The notes beneath the pieces are model-generated. The model was not told where the DNA came from and did no database searches. It was given only the letters and a program-made list of their open reading frames with translations. Below are positions 19,439 to 26,317 of a stretch of 64,000 nucleotides of DNA, piece after piece. A program made the translations under genes and the position numbers. Source of the DNA: Clostridia bacterium (GTDB lineage: Bacteria > Bacillota > Clostridia > Oscillospirales > Acutalibacteraceae); the NCBI GenBank assembly GCA_017513195.1, contig JAFXGM010000018.1, positions 142,360 to 206,359 of the forward strand, written 5' to 3'. Within the stretch, counting starts at the first letter, position 1. Every line of letters starts with the position of its first letter.

Positions 19439-19444
19439 TTTTTC

Positions 19445-19607
19445 AAATGATAGAGGCGCATTGTGTCAAAAGTATCATGCATAAAAGGTTGCCAAAGCCG
19501 CATGAAAAAGGGGCCAATGCCGAAGCGGATGTTGTGGCATACATCTGGCTGGCAACTCAGATAATATCTGTTTTGCTGTCGCATAAAATGCGGAGTGCTA
19601 TTCATTC
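19445..19607 (+). promoter_or_regulatory. lysine riboswitch aptamer (L box)
   Basis: Diagnostic conserved stretches occur in order: GATAGAGGCGC (19449-19459), AAAGTATC, AAAAGGGGCC, GCCGAAGCGG, TCTGGCTGGCAA, GCTGTCGCA and GGAGTGCTAT (19592-19601). P1 forms between AATGATAG at the 5' end and CTATTCATT at 19598-19606. The 3' strand of P1 (TGCTATTC) can instead pair with GGATAGCA (19645-19652), the 5' arm of the terminator. Lysine binding would fix P1 and free the terminator; without lysine the antiterminator forms. This represses dapA-ddh when lysine is plentiful. Confidence 0.95.
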
Positions 19608-19645
19608 TGAAATTGATATGTATAAATTGTACTTTGTTTTCGGAG

Positions 19646-19695: not shown

Positions 19696-20583
19696 ATGAA
19701 AAATACTGTATTTTTAGGTGCGGCAACCGCCATTATCACACCACTAAATGAAAAAGGAATAGACTTTGCTGCTTTTGGAAAACTAATCGAGTGGCAAATA
19801 GCCGAAGGCATTGATGCAATAGTTGTTGCAGGCACTACCGGCGAAGGCTCTACCCTTACTGACGAAGAACATAAGGCAGCAATCAAATTTTGCGTTGATA
19901 CGGTAGCAGGTCGCGTACCGGTTATTGCAGGCACCGGCTCTAATGATATTGCATACGCAATTTCTCTTACAAAATACGCTTGTGAGGTTGGCGCCGATGC
20001 AATGTTGCTTGTAACTCCCTATTACAACAAAGCTACACAAAACGGACTAATTAAATCCTTTACCGCTGTAGCAGACGTAAGCACAAAGCCTTGTATTTTA
20101 TACAACGTTCCAAGCAGAACGGGCTGTAATCTAAAACCTGAAACCTGTGCTGTTCTTGCAAAGCATCCAAATATTGTGGCAATTAAAGAAGCCAGCGGCG
20201 ACATTTCACAGGTGGCAGCTATTTCTCGCCTTTGTGGTGATAACCTTGATATTTACTCGGGTAACGACGACCAAATTGTTCCCGTAATGTCGCTTGGTGG
20301 TAAGGGTGTAATTTCTGTGCTTTCTAACCTATTGCCACGTGAAACTTCACAAATGTGTCATGCATATCTTACGGGCAACGTTGATACAGCGCGTGATATG
20401 CAGCTTAAATATTTACCACTTATTGATTCGCTTTTCTGTGAAGTAAATCCAATACCCGTAAAGGCTGCTATGTCGGCTATGGGCTATTGCGATAACTACC
20501 TTCGTCTGCCACTTACACCAATGGAAGATGCAAACGAGCAGAGATTGCTTACAGATATGCATGAAGCTGGTATAAAATTTTAA
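19696..20583 (+). CDS. dapA: 4-hydroxy-tetrahydrodipicolinate synthase (second copy, lysine riboswitch-controlled)
   Basis: This 295-residue DapA has the full active site: GTTGEGST (about residues 47-54), YYNKATQNG, ILYNVPSRTG with the catalytic Tyr, and the Schiff-base Lys in VAIKEASGD. It is a paralogue of the dapA at 7657, clearly similar throughout but diverged. SD TGGAGG precedes the ATG. It is the first gene after the lysine riboswitch terminator and is followed 17 bases later by ddh, so this copy serves lysine-regulated DAP synthesis by the dehydrogenase route. Confidence 0.94.
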   Translation: MKNTVFLGAATAIITPLNEKGIDFAAFGKLIEWQIAEGIDAIVVAGTTGEGSTLTDEEHKAAIKFCVDTVAGRVPVIAGTGSNDIAYAISLTKYACEVGADAMLLVTPYYNKATQNGLIKSFTAVADVSTKPCILYNVPSRTGCNLKPETCAVLAKHPNIVAIKEASGDISQVAAISRLCGDNLDIYSGNDDQIVPVMSLGGKGVISVLSNLLPRETSQMCHAYLTGNVDTARDMQLKYLPLIDSLFCEVNPIPVKAAMSAMGYCDNYLRLPLTPMEDANEQRLLTDMHEAGIKF

Positions 20584-22355: not shown

Positions 22356-22384
22356 TTGACAAATAATATAAATAGTGGTAAAAT
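22356..22384 (+). promoter_or_regulatory. promoter of glyA
   Basis: -35 TTGACA (22356-22361), 17-base spacer, -10 TAAAAT (22379-22384) with TGG ahead (extended -10). Confidence 0.75.
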
Positions 22385-22434: not shown

Positions 22435-23676
22435 ATGAACTTTTTTGACGAACTTAAAAATTATGACAGCGAAGTTTTTGCCGCTTGTGACGCAGAGCTA
22501 AACCGTCAACAAGGCAATATTGAGCTTATCGCTTCTGAAAATATTGTATCAAAGGCAGTGCTTCTTGCCGCAGGCGGAGTGCTTACAAATAAATATGCTG
22601 AAGGTTACCCCACAAAACGTTATTATGGCGGCTGTCAGTGTGTTGACGTTGTTGAAGATATTGCTCGCGAGCGCGCTAAAAAGCTCTTTGGTGCAGAGCA
22701 CGCAAACGTTCAGCCGCACAGCGGCGCAAACGCAAATTTGGCTGTTTTCTTTGCCTTACTAGAGCCGGGCGATACCGTTATGGGTATGAATTTGCAGCAA
22801 GGCGGTCACCTTTCTCACGGTTCACCTGTTAATATTTCGGGCAAATATTTTAATATTGTACCTTACGGTGTTGATGACACTACCGAAGCAATCGACTATG
22901 AAAACGTTCGCAAAATTGCTTTAGAATGCAAGCCTAAAATGATAATTGCGGGTGCCAGCGCATACTCAAGAACAATTGATTTTAAAAAGTTCCGCGAAAT
23001 CGCTGACGAGGTAGGCGCTTACCTTATGGTAGATATGGCACATATTGCAGGTCTTGTAGCTGCAGGTCTTCACCCGTCCCCTGTTCCTTATGCTGACGTT
23101 GTAACAACAACCACACACAAAACACTTCGTGGCCCACGCGGCGGTATGATTTTATGCCGTGAAGAGCTTGCAAAACAAATTGACAAGGCAGTATTCCCCG
23201 GTACACAGGGCGGTCCATTGATGCATATAATTGCGGCAAAAGCTGTGGCACTTGGCGAAGCGCTTACCGATGAATTTAAGGCATATCAGACTCAAATTGT
23301 TAAAAATGCCGCTACACTTGCCGATGCACTCAAGAAAAATGGTATTGAGTTGGTATCAGACGGCACTGATAATCATCTTATGCTTTTAAAGCTTACTAAC
23401 TTTGATATAACCGGTAAAGAGCTTGAGCACCGTCTTGACGAGGTTCACATTACCGCAAATAAAAACACAATTCCAAACGATCCTAACAGCCCATTTGTTA
23501 CAAGCGGTTTGCGTATTGGTACCCCCGCTGTTACAGCACGTGGTTTTAAGGAAAAAGAAATGCTTCTTATTGCTGATTGGATCAAAGATATTATCACCGA
23601 TTTTGACGCGAATAAAGAGCGTATTACCGCTGAGGTTCAGGCTCTTTGCGCACAGTTCCCTATATATAATGACTAA
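22435..23676 (+). CDS. glyA: serine hydroxymethyltransferase
   Basis: GlyA interconverts serine and glycine with tetrahydrofolate, using PLP. The 413-residue protein has the N-terminal [26 protein letters not shown], the [11 protein letters not shown] stretch, [14 protein letters not shown], and the PLP-lysine motif [15 protein letters not shown] (about residues 222-236). SD AAAGGAG is 7 bases ahead. The P-type ATPase gene follows after 18 bases and may share the transcript. Confidence 0.97.
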
Positions 23677-23694: not shown

Positions 23695-26274
23695 ATGATT
23701 TGGCACAGTTCAGAAACAAATGACGTGCTATCAGAGCTTGGAGTCACTAAAGAAAACGGTCTTGCTAATAGTTTGGCTCTTGAAAGACTTGAAATTTATG
23801 GCAAAAACACAAGATCAACAAGCAAAAAGACAAGCTTGCTTACACGTTTTTTATCTCAAATAAACAGTAAAATAGTATATTTTTTAACTGCAATAGCTAT
23901 AGCCTGCTTTATTGTAAACATTATATATGACAAAAGTGATTTTTACTTTCCAATACTAATTGTTGCCATTGTAGTTATTAACGCATTTATTAGCGCATTG
24001 CATCTTCATAAGTGTGATGAAGCGCTTGATGCAATACAAAATGCCGCAAATCCTGATGTTACGGTTATTCGTGACGGCAGTGAAAAGGTAATTTCATCCG
24101 ACCTTTTAGTCCCCGGCGATATAATGGTGCTAAAAGAAGGCGATTATATTACTGCCGATGCAAGAATTATTGAGTCAGACGGTTTACGTTGCAACGAAGC
24201 AATACTGTCCGGCGATGTTATTCCTGTAGATAAAGCCGCAGACACAATTGTAGAAGATATAACGGTTGTAAGTGCTCGTAAAAATATGGTTTTTGCAGGA
24301 TGTAACGTTGTTCACGGTACTGCACGTGTTGTGGTTGTTGAAACAGGTTTATGCACTGAAATTGGAAAACAAACCGATATTAGTCATCAAACCAATTCCG
24401 AAACACTGCCAATCACCGAAACCCTTGCTAACAGTGGAAAAATAATTAATATTGCAATTCTTGCATTTTGCATTTTAGCCTTCATTATAGGTATTATTCA
24501 AAACTTTAATTCTCGCGATCCATTTGCAACAATTACCCTATCGGCTCTTATGAATTCTGTTGCACTTGGAATAACCGCTATGCCTGAAAGCTTACCGGCA
24601 ATCTCCACAATTGTTCTTGCACTTGGTATCAAGCGCATGATTTATGATAATATTGTTATCAAAAACACGAAAGCGCTTGAAATAATCGGTAAAACCGAGG
24701 TTATTTGTGTTGATAAAACCGGAATTCTTACCAAAAACAATATGGTGCTTAACTATATTTTTGATGGTGAGCAGCTAACCGAGTTATCAGACGAAGCATT
24801 AAGTGATAAAACTGCCGGAGTTTTGCAGCTTGCTACTGCTTGTTCTATGCTTCAAAACGATTCAACAGAAAGTTGCATAGAAAACGCTTGTATAAAATAT
24901 CTTTCGTTATCACGAGAAGATGTAAGTAACCTATTCCCCCGTCTTTCGTCTATTCCGTTCGATAGTATTAGAAAGACAATGACAAGTATAAATATGATAA
25001 GCGGTAAACCGGTTGCTATTGTTAAGGGTGCACCCGAAATTGTAATAGAAAAGTGTAACATTGCCCAAAAGGATAAATTGTTAGAGCTGTGCAATTCTTT
25101 GGCAGAAAAATCCTACCGCGTTCTTTGCGTAGCAATAAAACCGCTTGATGAAATTCCGTCCAACCCTAATCCTGAAGAAATAGAAAACGAGCTTAATTTT
25201 GTTGGTTTATTGGCACTTAACGATCCTCCACAATCGGATACTGTTGAAGCTATTAGCACCTGTAATCTTGCCGGTATTAATACAATAATGATTACGGGCG
25301 ACAATATTCTTACAGCCAAAGCTGTTGCTCGCAGAATTGGTATTCTTACCGACGACAGTCAGGCTATTACCGGTTCTGAACTTGATAAACTGTCAGACGA
25401 TGAGCTTGCAAATTCTATTGAAAAATACACCGTTTTTGCCAGAATTACACCTAATGATAAGATTAGAATTATCAAAGCATGGCAAAGCATTGGCAAAATA
25501 GTTACTGTAACAGGTAATGACTTTGAAGATGCTGATGCTTTAAATGCTGCTGATATAGGTTGCAGTCTAGGTCAATATGGTGCAGATGCTGCCAAAGGAA
25601 ATGCTGACGTAATTATTAAAAACAAAAAGTTTATGACGGTTGTAAGCGCAATTCGCGAAAGCCGTTCGCTGTTTAACAACGTTAAAAAATCAGTAACCTA
25701 TTTGCTTGCTTGCAATTTTGGTGAAATTATTGCATATATTTTAGGTATGTTAATCTTCGGGCTTCCTCCCCTTGCTGCTGTTCAACTACTGTGGATAAAC
25801 CTGCTTACCGACAGCACTTGTGTAATTTCTTTAACCGTTGAAGGTTCTGAAGAAAACGTAATGCACAAAAAGCCACTTGCATTAACAGGGCATTTATTTA
25901 GTCGTAACGCACTGCTAAACATGCTAAGCGACTCACTGGTTATTGCGACATTAACACTTATATCATTTGCTTTCGGCGGACAATCAATGGCGTTTGCCAC
26001 ATTGGTAATGATACAGGTATTCCATTCATACAATATGAAAACCCAGCAATCACTTCTTAAAGCAGATTTTAAAACCAATAAATTTATGAACTTCTCATCT
26101 GTTTTAGTACTATTTATTTCAGTATTTTTAGTGCTGACTCCCGCGGGTATGGTATTTGGTCTTGAAACACTAAGTGTGGGTTCATTCTTGTTAAGTTTAC
26201 TTTTGTCGATTATTATAATTCCAATTAGTGAATTCAAGAAAATCTGGATGCAAAAAATTATTGCAAAGCAATAA
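23695..26274 (+). CDS. P-type (P2-like) cation ATPase with altered catalytic motifs
   Basis: The 859-residue protein has the whole P2-type ATPase layout: N-terminal cation ATPase domain, M1-M4, actuator, phosphorylation and nucleotide domains, M5-M10. The phosphorylation site CVDKTGILT (D340), KGAPE, TGDN and the FARITPNDK lysine are kept. Ion-site residues are also kept: MPESLP in M4 (E298), CNFGE in M5 and INLLTD in M6. Two catalytic motifs are changed: the actuator TGES is SGDV (172-175) and the hinge GDGVND is GNDFED (607-612), so the Mg-binding Asp and the Asn are replaced. The frame is open throughout, so this is not a sequencing artefact. It is probably a Ca2+ or related transporter with altered cycling, or a sensor-like derivative. 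It follows glyA by 18 bases. Confidence 0.85.
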   Translation: MIWHSSETNDVLSELGVTKENGLANSLALERLEIYGKNTRSTSKKTSLLTRFLSQINSKIVYFLTAIAIACFIVNIIYDKSDFYFPILIVAIVVINAFISALHLHKCDEALDAIQNAANPDVTVIRDGSEKVISSDLLVPGDIMVLKEGDYITADARIIESDGLRCNEAILSGDVIPVDKAADTIVEDITVVSARKNMVFAGCNVVHGTARVVVVETGLCTEIGKQTDISHQTNSETLPITETLANSGKIINIAILAFCILAFIIGIIQNFNSRDPFATITLSALMNSVALGITAMPESLPAISTIVLALGIKRMIYDNIVIKNTKALEIIGKTEVICVDKTGILTKNNMVLNYIFDGEQLTELSDEALSDKTAGVLQLATACSMLQNDSTESCIENACIKYLSLSREDVSNLFPRLSSIPFDSIRKTMTSINMISGKPVAIVKGAPEIVIEKCNIAQKDKLLELCNSLAEKSYRVLCVAIKPLDEIPSNPNPEEIENELNFVGLLALNDPPQSDTVEAISTCNLAGINTIMITGDNILTAKAVARRIGILTDDSQAITGSELDKLSDDELANSIEKYTVFARITPNDKIRIIKAWQSIGKIVTVTGNDFEDADALNAADIGCSLGQYGADAAKGNADVIIKNKKFMTVVSAIRESRSLFNNVKKSVTYLLACNFGEIIAYILGMLIFGLPPLAAVQLLWINLLTDSTCVISLTVEGSEENVMHKKPLALTGHLFSRNALLNMLSDSLVIATLTLISFAFGGQSMAFATLVMIQVFHSYNMKTQQSLLKADFKTNKFMNFSSVLVLFISVFLVLTPAGMVFGLETLSVGSFLLSLLLSIIIIPISEFKKIWMQKIIAKQ

Positions 26275-26279
26275 AATTT

Positions 26280-26310
26280 AAACCCCTTTGTGAAACTCAC
26301 AAAGGGGTTT
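26280..26310. terminator. bidirectional terminator between the P-type ATPase and mgtE
   Basis: 14-bp stem AAACCCCTTTGTGA/TCACAAAGGGGTTT with loop AAC, between two convergent genes. Confidence 0.9.
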
Positions 26311-26317
26311 GTTATAT

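Follow-up and report, generated by a model that had tools for sequence, protein, structure and literature searches.

Can a P-type ATPase in which both the TGES loop and the GDGVND loop are altered still work as a pump? These two motifs are treated as near-invariant in P-type ATPases, and both are replaced in a protein encoded in a 64,000-nucleotide stretch of DNA from a gut Clostridia bacterium, the whole of which is called the window below. With modest confidence, we read this protein as an active P2A-type cation pump in which the E2P and Mg2+ loops have been rebuilt within one uncultured lineage of Clostridia.

The gene and its altered loops

The gene, its two altered loops and the motifs that are kept are located as follows:

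23695..26274, + strand: gene for a P2A-type ATPase of 859 aa whose actuator and P-domain loops are altered (ORF, Pfam, LMCA1 match)
24208..24219, + strand: SGDV, residues 172-175, replacing actuator TGES, Glu to Asp at 174 (LMCA1 alignment, homologue alignment)
24583..24594, + strand: PESL of M4 (MPESLP), with Glu298, ion site (motif reading)
24712..24723, + strand: DKTG, with the phosphorylated Asp340, intact (motif reading and alignment)
25024..25038, + strand: KGAPE, with the nucleotide-binding Lys444, intact (motif reading)
25294..25305, + strand: TGDN at 534, P-domain motif, intact (motif reading)
25513..25530, + strand: GNDFED, residues 607-612, replacing GDGVND, with D608N, Asn to Glu at 611 and Asp612 kept (LMCA1 alignment, homologue alignment)
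25711..25725, + strand: CNFGE of M5, residues 673-677, with Asn674 and Glu677, ion site (motif reading)
25795..25812, + strand: INLLTD of M6, residues 701-706, with Asn702, Thr705 and Asp706, ion site (motif reading)

The open reading frame at 23695-26274 (+) starts with ATG, has a GGAG seven bases upstream and encodes 859 amino acids without an internal stop. Five Pfam models score above their gathering scores (PF00690, PF00122, PF13246, PF00702 and PF00689), with the domain names E1-E2_ATPase, Cation_ATPase_N and _C, Cation_ATPase, and Hydrolase. The P-type superfamily model TIGR01494 is passed with 215.6 bits against a cut-off of 62.3. The top NCBIfam profiles are TIGR01522 (PMR1-type, 437 bits) and TIGR01116 (SERCA-type, 408 bits), and none of the Ca2+ equivalog cut-offs is reached (437/798 for TIGR01522, 408/703 for TIGR01116 and 345/507 for TIGR01517). 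Among solved structures, the best sequence match is the Listeria pump LMCA1 (6zhf; HMMER, 449 bits over residues 13-842). The altered ATPase is the one P2A pump of its own genome (1.88 Mb, 97.79% complete), where further matches all lie on one contig and show 22-39% identity over pieces.

In the HMMER alignment to LMCA1, SGDV stands opposite TGES and GNDFED opposite GDGVND, and both loops and their flanks are free of gaps. The loop changes are therefore real and not an alignment slip; an alignment artefact was considered and rejected, since neither loop has a gap against LMCA1. Alignment to this solved pump restores no canonical residues at the altered positions. The superfamily hallmark TGE(S), with its catalytic Glu, is absent (SGDV, Asp174), and GNDFED departs from GDGxND, with its Mg-binding Asp, while retaining the first Gly and the last Asp. 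Position 174 is Glu and position 608 is Asp in every one of the 74 canonical homologues aligned. We take Asn608 to be the equivalent of the SERCA Mg-ligand Asp703, Glu611 that of SERCA Asn706 and Asp612 that of SERCA Asp707. SERCA Asp703 is named as a Mg2+-linked residue of the TGDXND motif in the available part of a published account (PMC11208427).

All six P2A ion-site residues are present (E298, N674, E677, N702, T705 and D706), and the site appears Ca2+-like by its residues. The first-pass annotation had described a full-length protein without frame breaks, with SGDV at 172-175, GNDFED at 607-612, and DKTG, KGAPE, TGDN and the M4, M5 and M6 ion residues intact. The reading frame, the loop coordinates and the motif positions agree with it. 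It was also right that the Mg-binding Asp and the following Asn are replaced, by Asn608 and Glu611 in the LMCA1 alignment. Its statement that the catalytic Glu is removed stands only in part: Glu174 is indeed replaced, but by Asp, so that a carboxylate stays, and Glu is found there in five of the nine members of the close clade described below.

Distribution and ancestry of the altered copies

Of 70 genomes of the genus, 64 carry an orthologue: 61 match at E<=1e-200, and G029, G044 and G046 have it as fragments lying at contig ends. Among the matches listed, the altered copy is the sole P2A pump in 43 of 61 genus genomes, which speaks for a working pump; 12 carry altered and canonical copies, three a canonical copy only, and three neither. 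This second, canonical P2A copy of the genus (L079-L088, L090-L095), found in 15/61 genomes, 12 of which also have the altered one, again among the matches listed, is of the same family and has TGES and GDGVND intact where covered; within the range L079-L095, L082 and L089 are altered-type fragments and L095 is a C-terminal fragment. Rows of at least 690/859 residues came from 58 of the 64 gene-bearing genus genomes, two of them truncated at a contig end, and the other six comprise four copies cut at contig ends and two with an in-frame TAG. The latter are L065 and L071, from genomes 64 and 79% complete.

Sampling was widened to 300 genomes of the family and 295 of the order, and a profile of the altered clade was run on overlapping samples of the order (295), family (300) and class (245), motifs being read in the fetched loci rather than in every match. 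Beyond the genus, three more genera of its family carry altered copies, in 3, 2 and 1 genomes respectively; the lone altered row of the third, L164, is doubtful, with a long branch and an unsure place. The other P2A loci fetched outside the genus have DKTG, TGES (one TGEC) and GDGVND (one GDGIND).

For the alignment, 24 duplicate ORFs and nine short pieces with fewer than 690 residues aligned (L078, L065 twice, L082, L089, L071 twice, L095, L096) were left out, giving 139 rows. These include three altered rows that are truncated at a contig edge yet exceed the limit (L067, L077, L154). In a tree of 138 rows, the 139 minus a second, distant L055 hit, the 64 altered rows form one clade; its deepest forks are supported at 88-91, and the group of 58 genus rows at 100. 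This clade is nested among canonical P2A pumps, the next row being the canonical L169. A mixture-model tree of 51 representatives, which omits the altered motif columns, two further motif stretches and L164, recovers the genus and two other genera as a clade (SH-aLRT 99.6; genus 100). When L164 is kept, in a tree of 72 rows of which eight are canonical, the altered rows are separated from these eight with a support of only 77. Since the altered rows group together in the trees, loosening of both loops appears to be confined to one clade in this family, on present sampling. A lone degenerate copy, one of two outcomes that the first-pass annotation had named as refuting its reading, was rejected: the orthologues are genus-wide and form one clade.

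Single loop letters have changed many times within the altered clade. The window protein belongs to a close clade of nine members (with L131, L035, L140, L132, L008, L036, L141 and L010). Residue 174 is Glu in five of these (SGE[IV]) and Asp in four (SGD[VIT]); the sister L131, 82% identical to the window protein, reads SGEI and keeps Glu174. Position 608 is Asn in 8/9 and Ser in 1/9, with Asp608 in none, and position 611 is Glu in 8/9 and Lys in 1/9. All nine have the six ion-site residues, the nine phosphorylation residues, DKTG, and Glu or Asp at 174. As to whether SGDV/GNDFED marks a clade, a question that the first-pass annotation had raised, the exact letters define none, but SG[DE]x with GNx (one GSx) marks this nine-member clade.

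Residue variation in the altered clade

All 64 altered rows differ from GDGVND, and TGES is still present in three (L011, L033, L060). Of 170 columns that are at least 95% fixed in the 74 canonical rows, 67 stay so in the altered rows and 103 fall below 95%. Those still fixed at this level include D340, K341, T342, G343, K444, T534, G535, D536, K589 and D612. Glu174 is kept in 28/64 altered rows (with Asp in 17), Asp608 in 44/64 and Asn611 in 4/64, while Thr344 has become Ile or Val in 58/64 and Pro614 Asp or Glu in 53/64. The six-residue ion site is complete in 53/64 altered rows versus 71/74 canonical rows, and all nine phosphorylation and nucleotide residues tested are present in 60/64 versus 73/74. 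The fewest changes needed on the 72-row tree are seven for keeping or losing the ion site, ten for Glu174 and four for Asp608, and about 18 changes of letter are counted at position 174.

Ion-site residues are lost in 11/64 altered rows and in 0/9 members of the close clade. Because these 11 losses require about seven changes, transport has not been selected for in every branch. L069 (301-2910) and L147 (9114-11723) lack E298, N674, E677, T705 and D706 and keep the nine phosphorylation residues; these two are candidate non-pumping P-type ATPases.

Several single-site substitutions are recorded here in their own right. In L033 (1510-4089, - strand), NKTG replaces DKTG, with Asn at the phosphorylated position and TGES intact. 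Lys stands at the position of ion-site Glu298 in three relatives (L062, L077, L136). Outside the genus of the window protein, K589 is Arg in L105, L153 and L154, and Asp608 is Thr in L155 and L156.

The main alternative to a pump is a phosphorylating non-pump, that is, a membrane sensor or regulator in which Asp340 is phosphorylated and kept so, signalling ion or energy status. The contrast between the almost fixed phosphorylation residues and the dephosphorylation Glu (28/64) and Mg Asp (44/64), which are not fixed, is what such a protein would show, and L069 and L147 retain their nine phosphorylation residues without five of the six ion residues, at a pairwise dN/dS of 0.058 with dS saturated. 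For the window protein, however, we consider this reading unlikely, though the least so of the alternatives: the ion site is complete in 53 rows of the 64 and throughout the close clade, and, as described below, a carboxylate at 174 or 175 is almost always present.

The loop changes might instead accompany a shift in substrate from Ca2+ to another ion or a small molecule. The wider clade has E298K, E298A or E298T in seven rows, and the window protein lies under every NCBIfam equivalog cut-off that it matched, as such a shift would have it. Still, the close clade keeps all six Ca2+-type residues and the top profile remains that of the PMR1-type Ca2+ ATPase, at 437 bits, so we regard a change of substrate as very unlikely.

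Carboxylates in the two loops

Glu or Asp is found at 174 or 175 in 61/64 altered rows, 57/58 in the genus; the three rows with no acid at either position are L031, L105 and L153. An either-or pattern of acids like that of 174/175 occurs in only 2/852 neighbouring column pairs. Counting acids at 174, 175, 608, 609, 611 and 612, exactly three are present in 74/74 canonical rows, while the altered rows have two in one row, three in 32, four in 30 and five in one. The presence of an acid at 174 or 175 in 61/64 rows, together with these counts at six loop positions, suggests a continuing requirement for a carboxylate close to the phosphate.

In the raw table, rows without Asp608 have an acid at 174 in 20/20 cases versus 25/44 with it, and an acid at 611 in 17/20 versus 12/44. 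Dependent-rates tests, which allow for kinship, gave p=0.04 for 174 with 175, 0.20 for Asp608 with an acid at 174 and 0.24 for Asp608 with an acid at 611, for acid positions that were picked after viewing the data. Independent-pair tests of these acid associations had three to five pairs each, and none was significant. Compensation of Asp608 by acids at 174 or 611 was thus not borne out by either the independent pairs or the dependent-rates test.

These residues bear on another alternative, that the Asn608/Glu611 site uses Mn2+ or another divalent ion as cofactor, with the rest of the cycle ordinary. Its attraction is that Asp608 is absent throughout the nine-member close clade (replaced by Asn in eight and by Ser in one), that eight of the nine have Glu611, and that the wider clade has the same raw association of an acid at 611 with loss of Asp608. 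That association fails the kinship-aware test (p=0.24), and a changed metal cofactor is in our judgement quite improbable.

Selection on the altered gene

Pairwise dN/dS (NG86) was 0.035-0.09 in ten altered pairs versus 0.032-0.076 in nine canonical pairs; the pairs were hand-picked, and several dS values are above 1 (1.93 for the window protein and L131) and hence rough. In the four altered pairs with dS <1, dN/dS was 0.035-0.065. Similar changes run through a group of related bacteria under strong selection, and the altered ATPase is therefore probably a functional variant rather than a defective copy.

The opposite case is that of a relaxed, decaying gene, an old pump losing its function and intact by chance. 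Such a gene would account for NKTG in L033, for the in-frame TAG in L065 and L071, and for the 103 of 170 canonical-fixed columns that fall below 95%. It sits poorly with a dN/dS essentially within the canonical range in the ten altered pairs and with rows of at least 690/859 residues from 58 of the 64 genus genomes with the gene, and we judge decay to be the least probable of the explanations, at the margin of what need be entertained.

Genomic surroundings

Three further features lie around the ATPase gene:

22356..22384, + strand: promoter-like TTGACA-17-TAAAAT before glyA, 11/12 consensus letters (consensus match)
22435..23676, + strand: glyA, named from its translation and so called in the first-pass annotation, the upstream neighbour, 18 bases before the ATPase start (translation reading)
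26279..26311, + strand: terminator-like hairpin of 15 pairs after the ATPase (longest of seven; shuffle mean 4.3)

The 18-base spacing, the promoter-like match before glyA and the hairpin after the ATPase suggest that glyA and the ATPase gene may form one transcript, as far as consensus matches can indicate. The TTGACA-17-TAAAAT promoter is a lead only, because the region holds 21 such promoter-like sites against a shuffle mean of 14.0.

With genes named from their translations, glyA precedes the ATPase in the window and in all six other close-clade loci scanned, and an mgtE-like gene on the opposite strand follows it in the window and in 5/6 of those loci. In 9/11 other genus loci, the ATPase follows a block of leuS, HAD-type phosphatase and endonuclease IV. 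No constant gene partner hinting at function emerged from the window and the 17 further genus loci; with glyA in one branch and a leuS-containing block in another, this argues against the phosphorylating sensor or regulator. An Rfam scan of 12 sources gave no metal riboswitch at gathering score, which counts against the changed metal cofactor. The search returned solely a lysine riboswitch before dapA and one tRNA. The riboswitch (RF00168, 83 bits, 19443-19608, +) precedes a dapA-like gene at 19696 and is ordinary; it is likewise present in L034, L036, L037, L140 and L141.

A proposed pump model for the altered ATPase

An active, re-tuned pump is the simplest reading because of Asp174, Asp612 and the new acids at 609 and 611. 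In this model, ATP would phosphorylate Asp340 in the usual way. Mg2+ would be held by Asp340, Asp612 and probably the new acids at 609 or 611, which would replace Asp608. Hydrolysis of the phosphoenzyme would be aided by the carboxylate of residue 174, an Asp in the window protein and a Glu in its sisters, or by that of residue 175 in other branches. The altered loops would be the pair that comes together above the aspartyl phosphate in E2P, and the expected outcome is a changed, probably slower, E2P turnover or a changed Mg2+ dependence, with transport kept. The sequence, the clade, the purifying selection and the conserved phosphorylation and ion residues of the nine-member clade are observed, whereas activity, transported ion, function of the new acids and kinetics are our inference.

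Between pump and non-pump, the data favour a pump for the window protein and a non-pump for some relatives; where a branch has lost its ion site, a role other than pumping becomes the likelier one. A broader proposal is that a gut Clostridia lineage turned a Ca2+ pump into a phospho-sensor selected for autophosphorylation and not for turnover. The E2P hydrolysis machinery would then have been freed to vary, the phosphorylation core would have stayed nearly fixed, and the ion site would have been dismantled in some branches (L069, L147, L153, L135). We put this forward as speculative and rather unlikely, and retain the re-tuned pump as the reading of the window protein.

With dozens of species whose two loops differ although purifying selection is strong, the clade offers a ready natural mutagenesis series, which could show what dephosphorylation and the Mg site require and which changes depend on each other. 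If it is true that some members no longer pump, they would exemplify, in bacteria, the conversion of a transporter into a regulator.

Comparison with known systems

Among the literature matches listed, there is no biochemistry on the altered group and no comparable bacterial group; subscription papers fall mostly outside this scope, which leaves absence unproven. The best profiles are those of the PMR1- and SERCA-type P2A Ca2+-ATPases (TIGR01522, TIGR01116), and the window ATPase lies under their equivalog cut-offs. Its canonical neighbour L169 is also below both (660 and 633 bits). Against the PMCA-type cut-off of 507, the window ATPase fails (345) whereas L169 passes (515).

The DKTG, TGD, M4 and M6 motifs of the Listeria Ca2+-ATPase LMCA1 (lmo0841; PDB 6zhf and 9euq) align with those of the window ATPase. 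LMCA1 has TGES and GDGVND where the window ATPase has SGDV and GNDFED, and at the M5 position LMCA1 has Ala in place of Glu677. According to the available parts of the sources, the TGES loop of LMCA1 catalyses dephosphorylation (PMC11977196), and the TGES Glu is the in-built phosphatase of P-type ATPases (PMC11977196, PMC10654040). Mutants of this loop are described in similarly partial texts: Drs2p E342Q, at the TGES Glu, did not restore growth and lost specific ATPase activity (PMC4230938), and the MgtA TGES mutant E215A complemented partially when overexpressed, with growth significantly below wild type (PMC10925321). For the soluble catalytic domain of PfATP4, the accessible text reports that one of the two Mg-site Asp residues is dispensable and that activity falls when both are changed; this soluble construct hydrolyses ATP even without its phosphorylated Asp (PMC12152296). 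The TGES Glu is thus regarded as critical, and the Drs2p result and the reduced growth of MgtA E215A tell against an active pump; the partial complementation by MgtA E215A and the tolerance seen in PfATP4 are precedents in its favour.

The genus also offers its own comparison, in the canonical copy with both loops intact. To our knowledge, the nearest known P-type fold without TGES and GDGVND is TMEM94/ERMA, the activity of which is disputed. In the parts of the reports at hand, this eukaryotic ER protein has a P-type fold without TGES and with GSSANL in place of GDGVND, and its Asp is reportedly required for Mg2+ uptake (PMC13322241), whereas another group finds no ATPase activity (PMC12134183). 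Compared by that partial description, ERMA has a DKQG loop (PMC13322241) and an occluded nucleotide pocket; the window ATPase has DKTG in place of an ERMA-like DKQG, and its TGD and Lys444 are intact.
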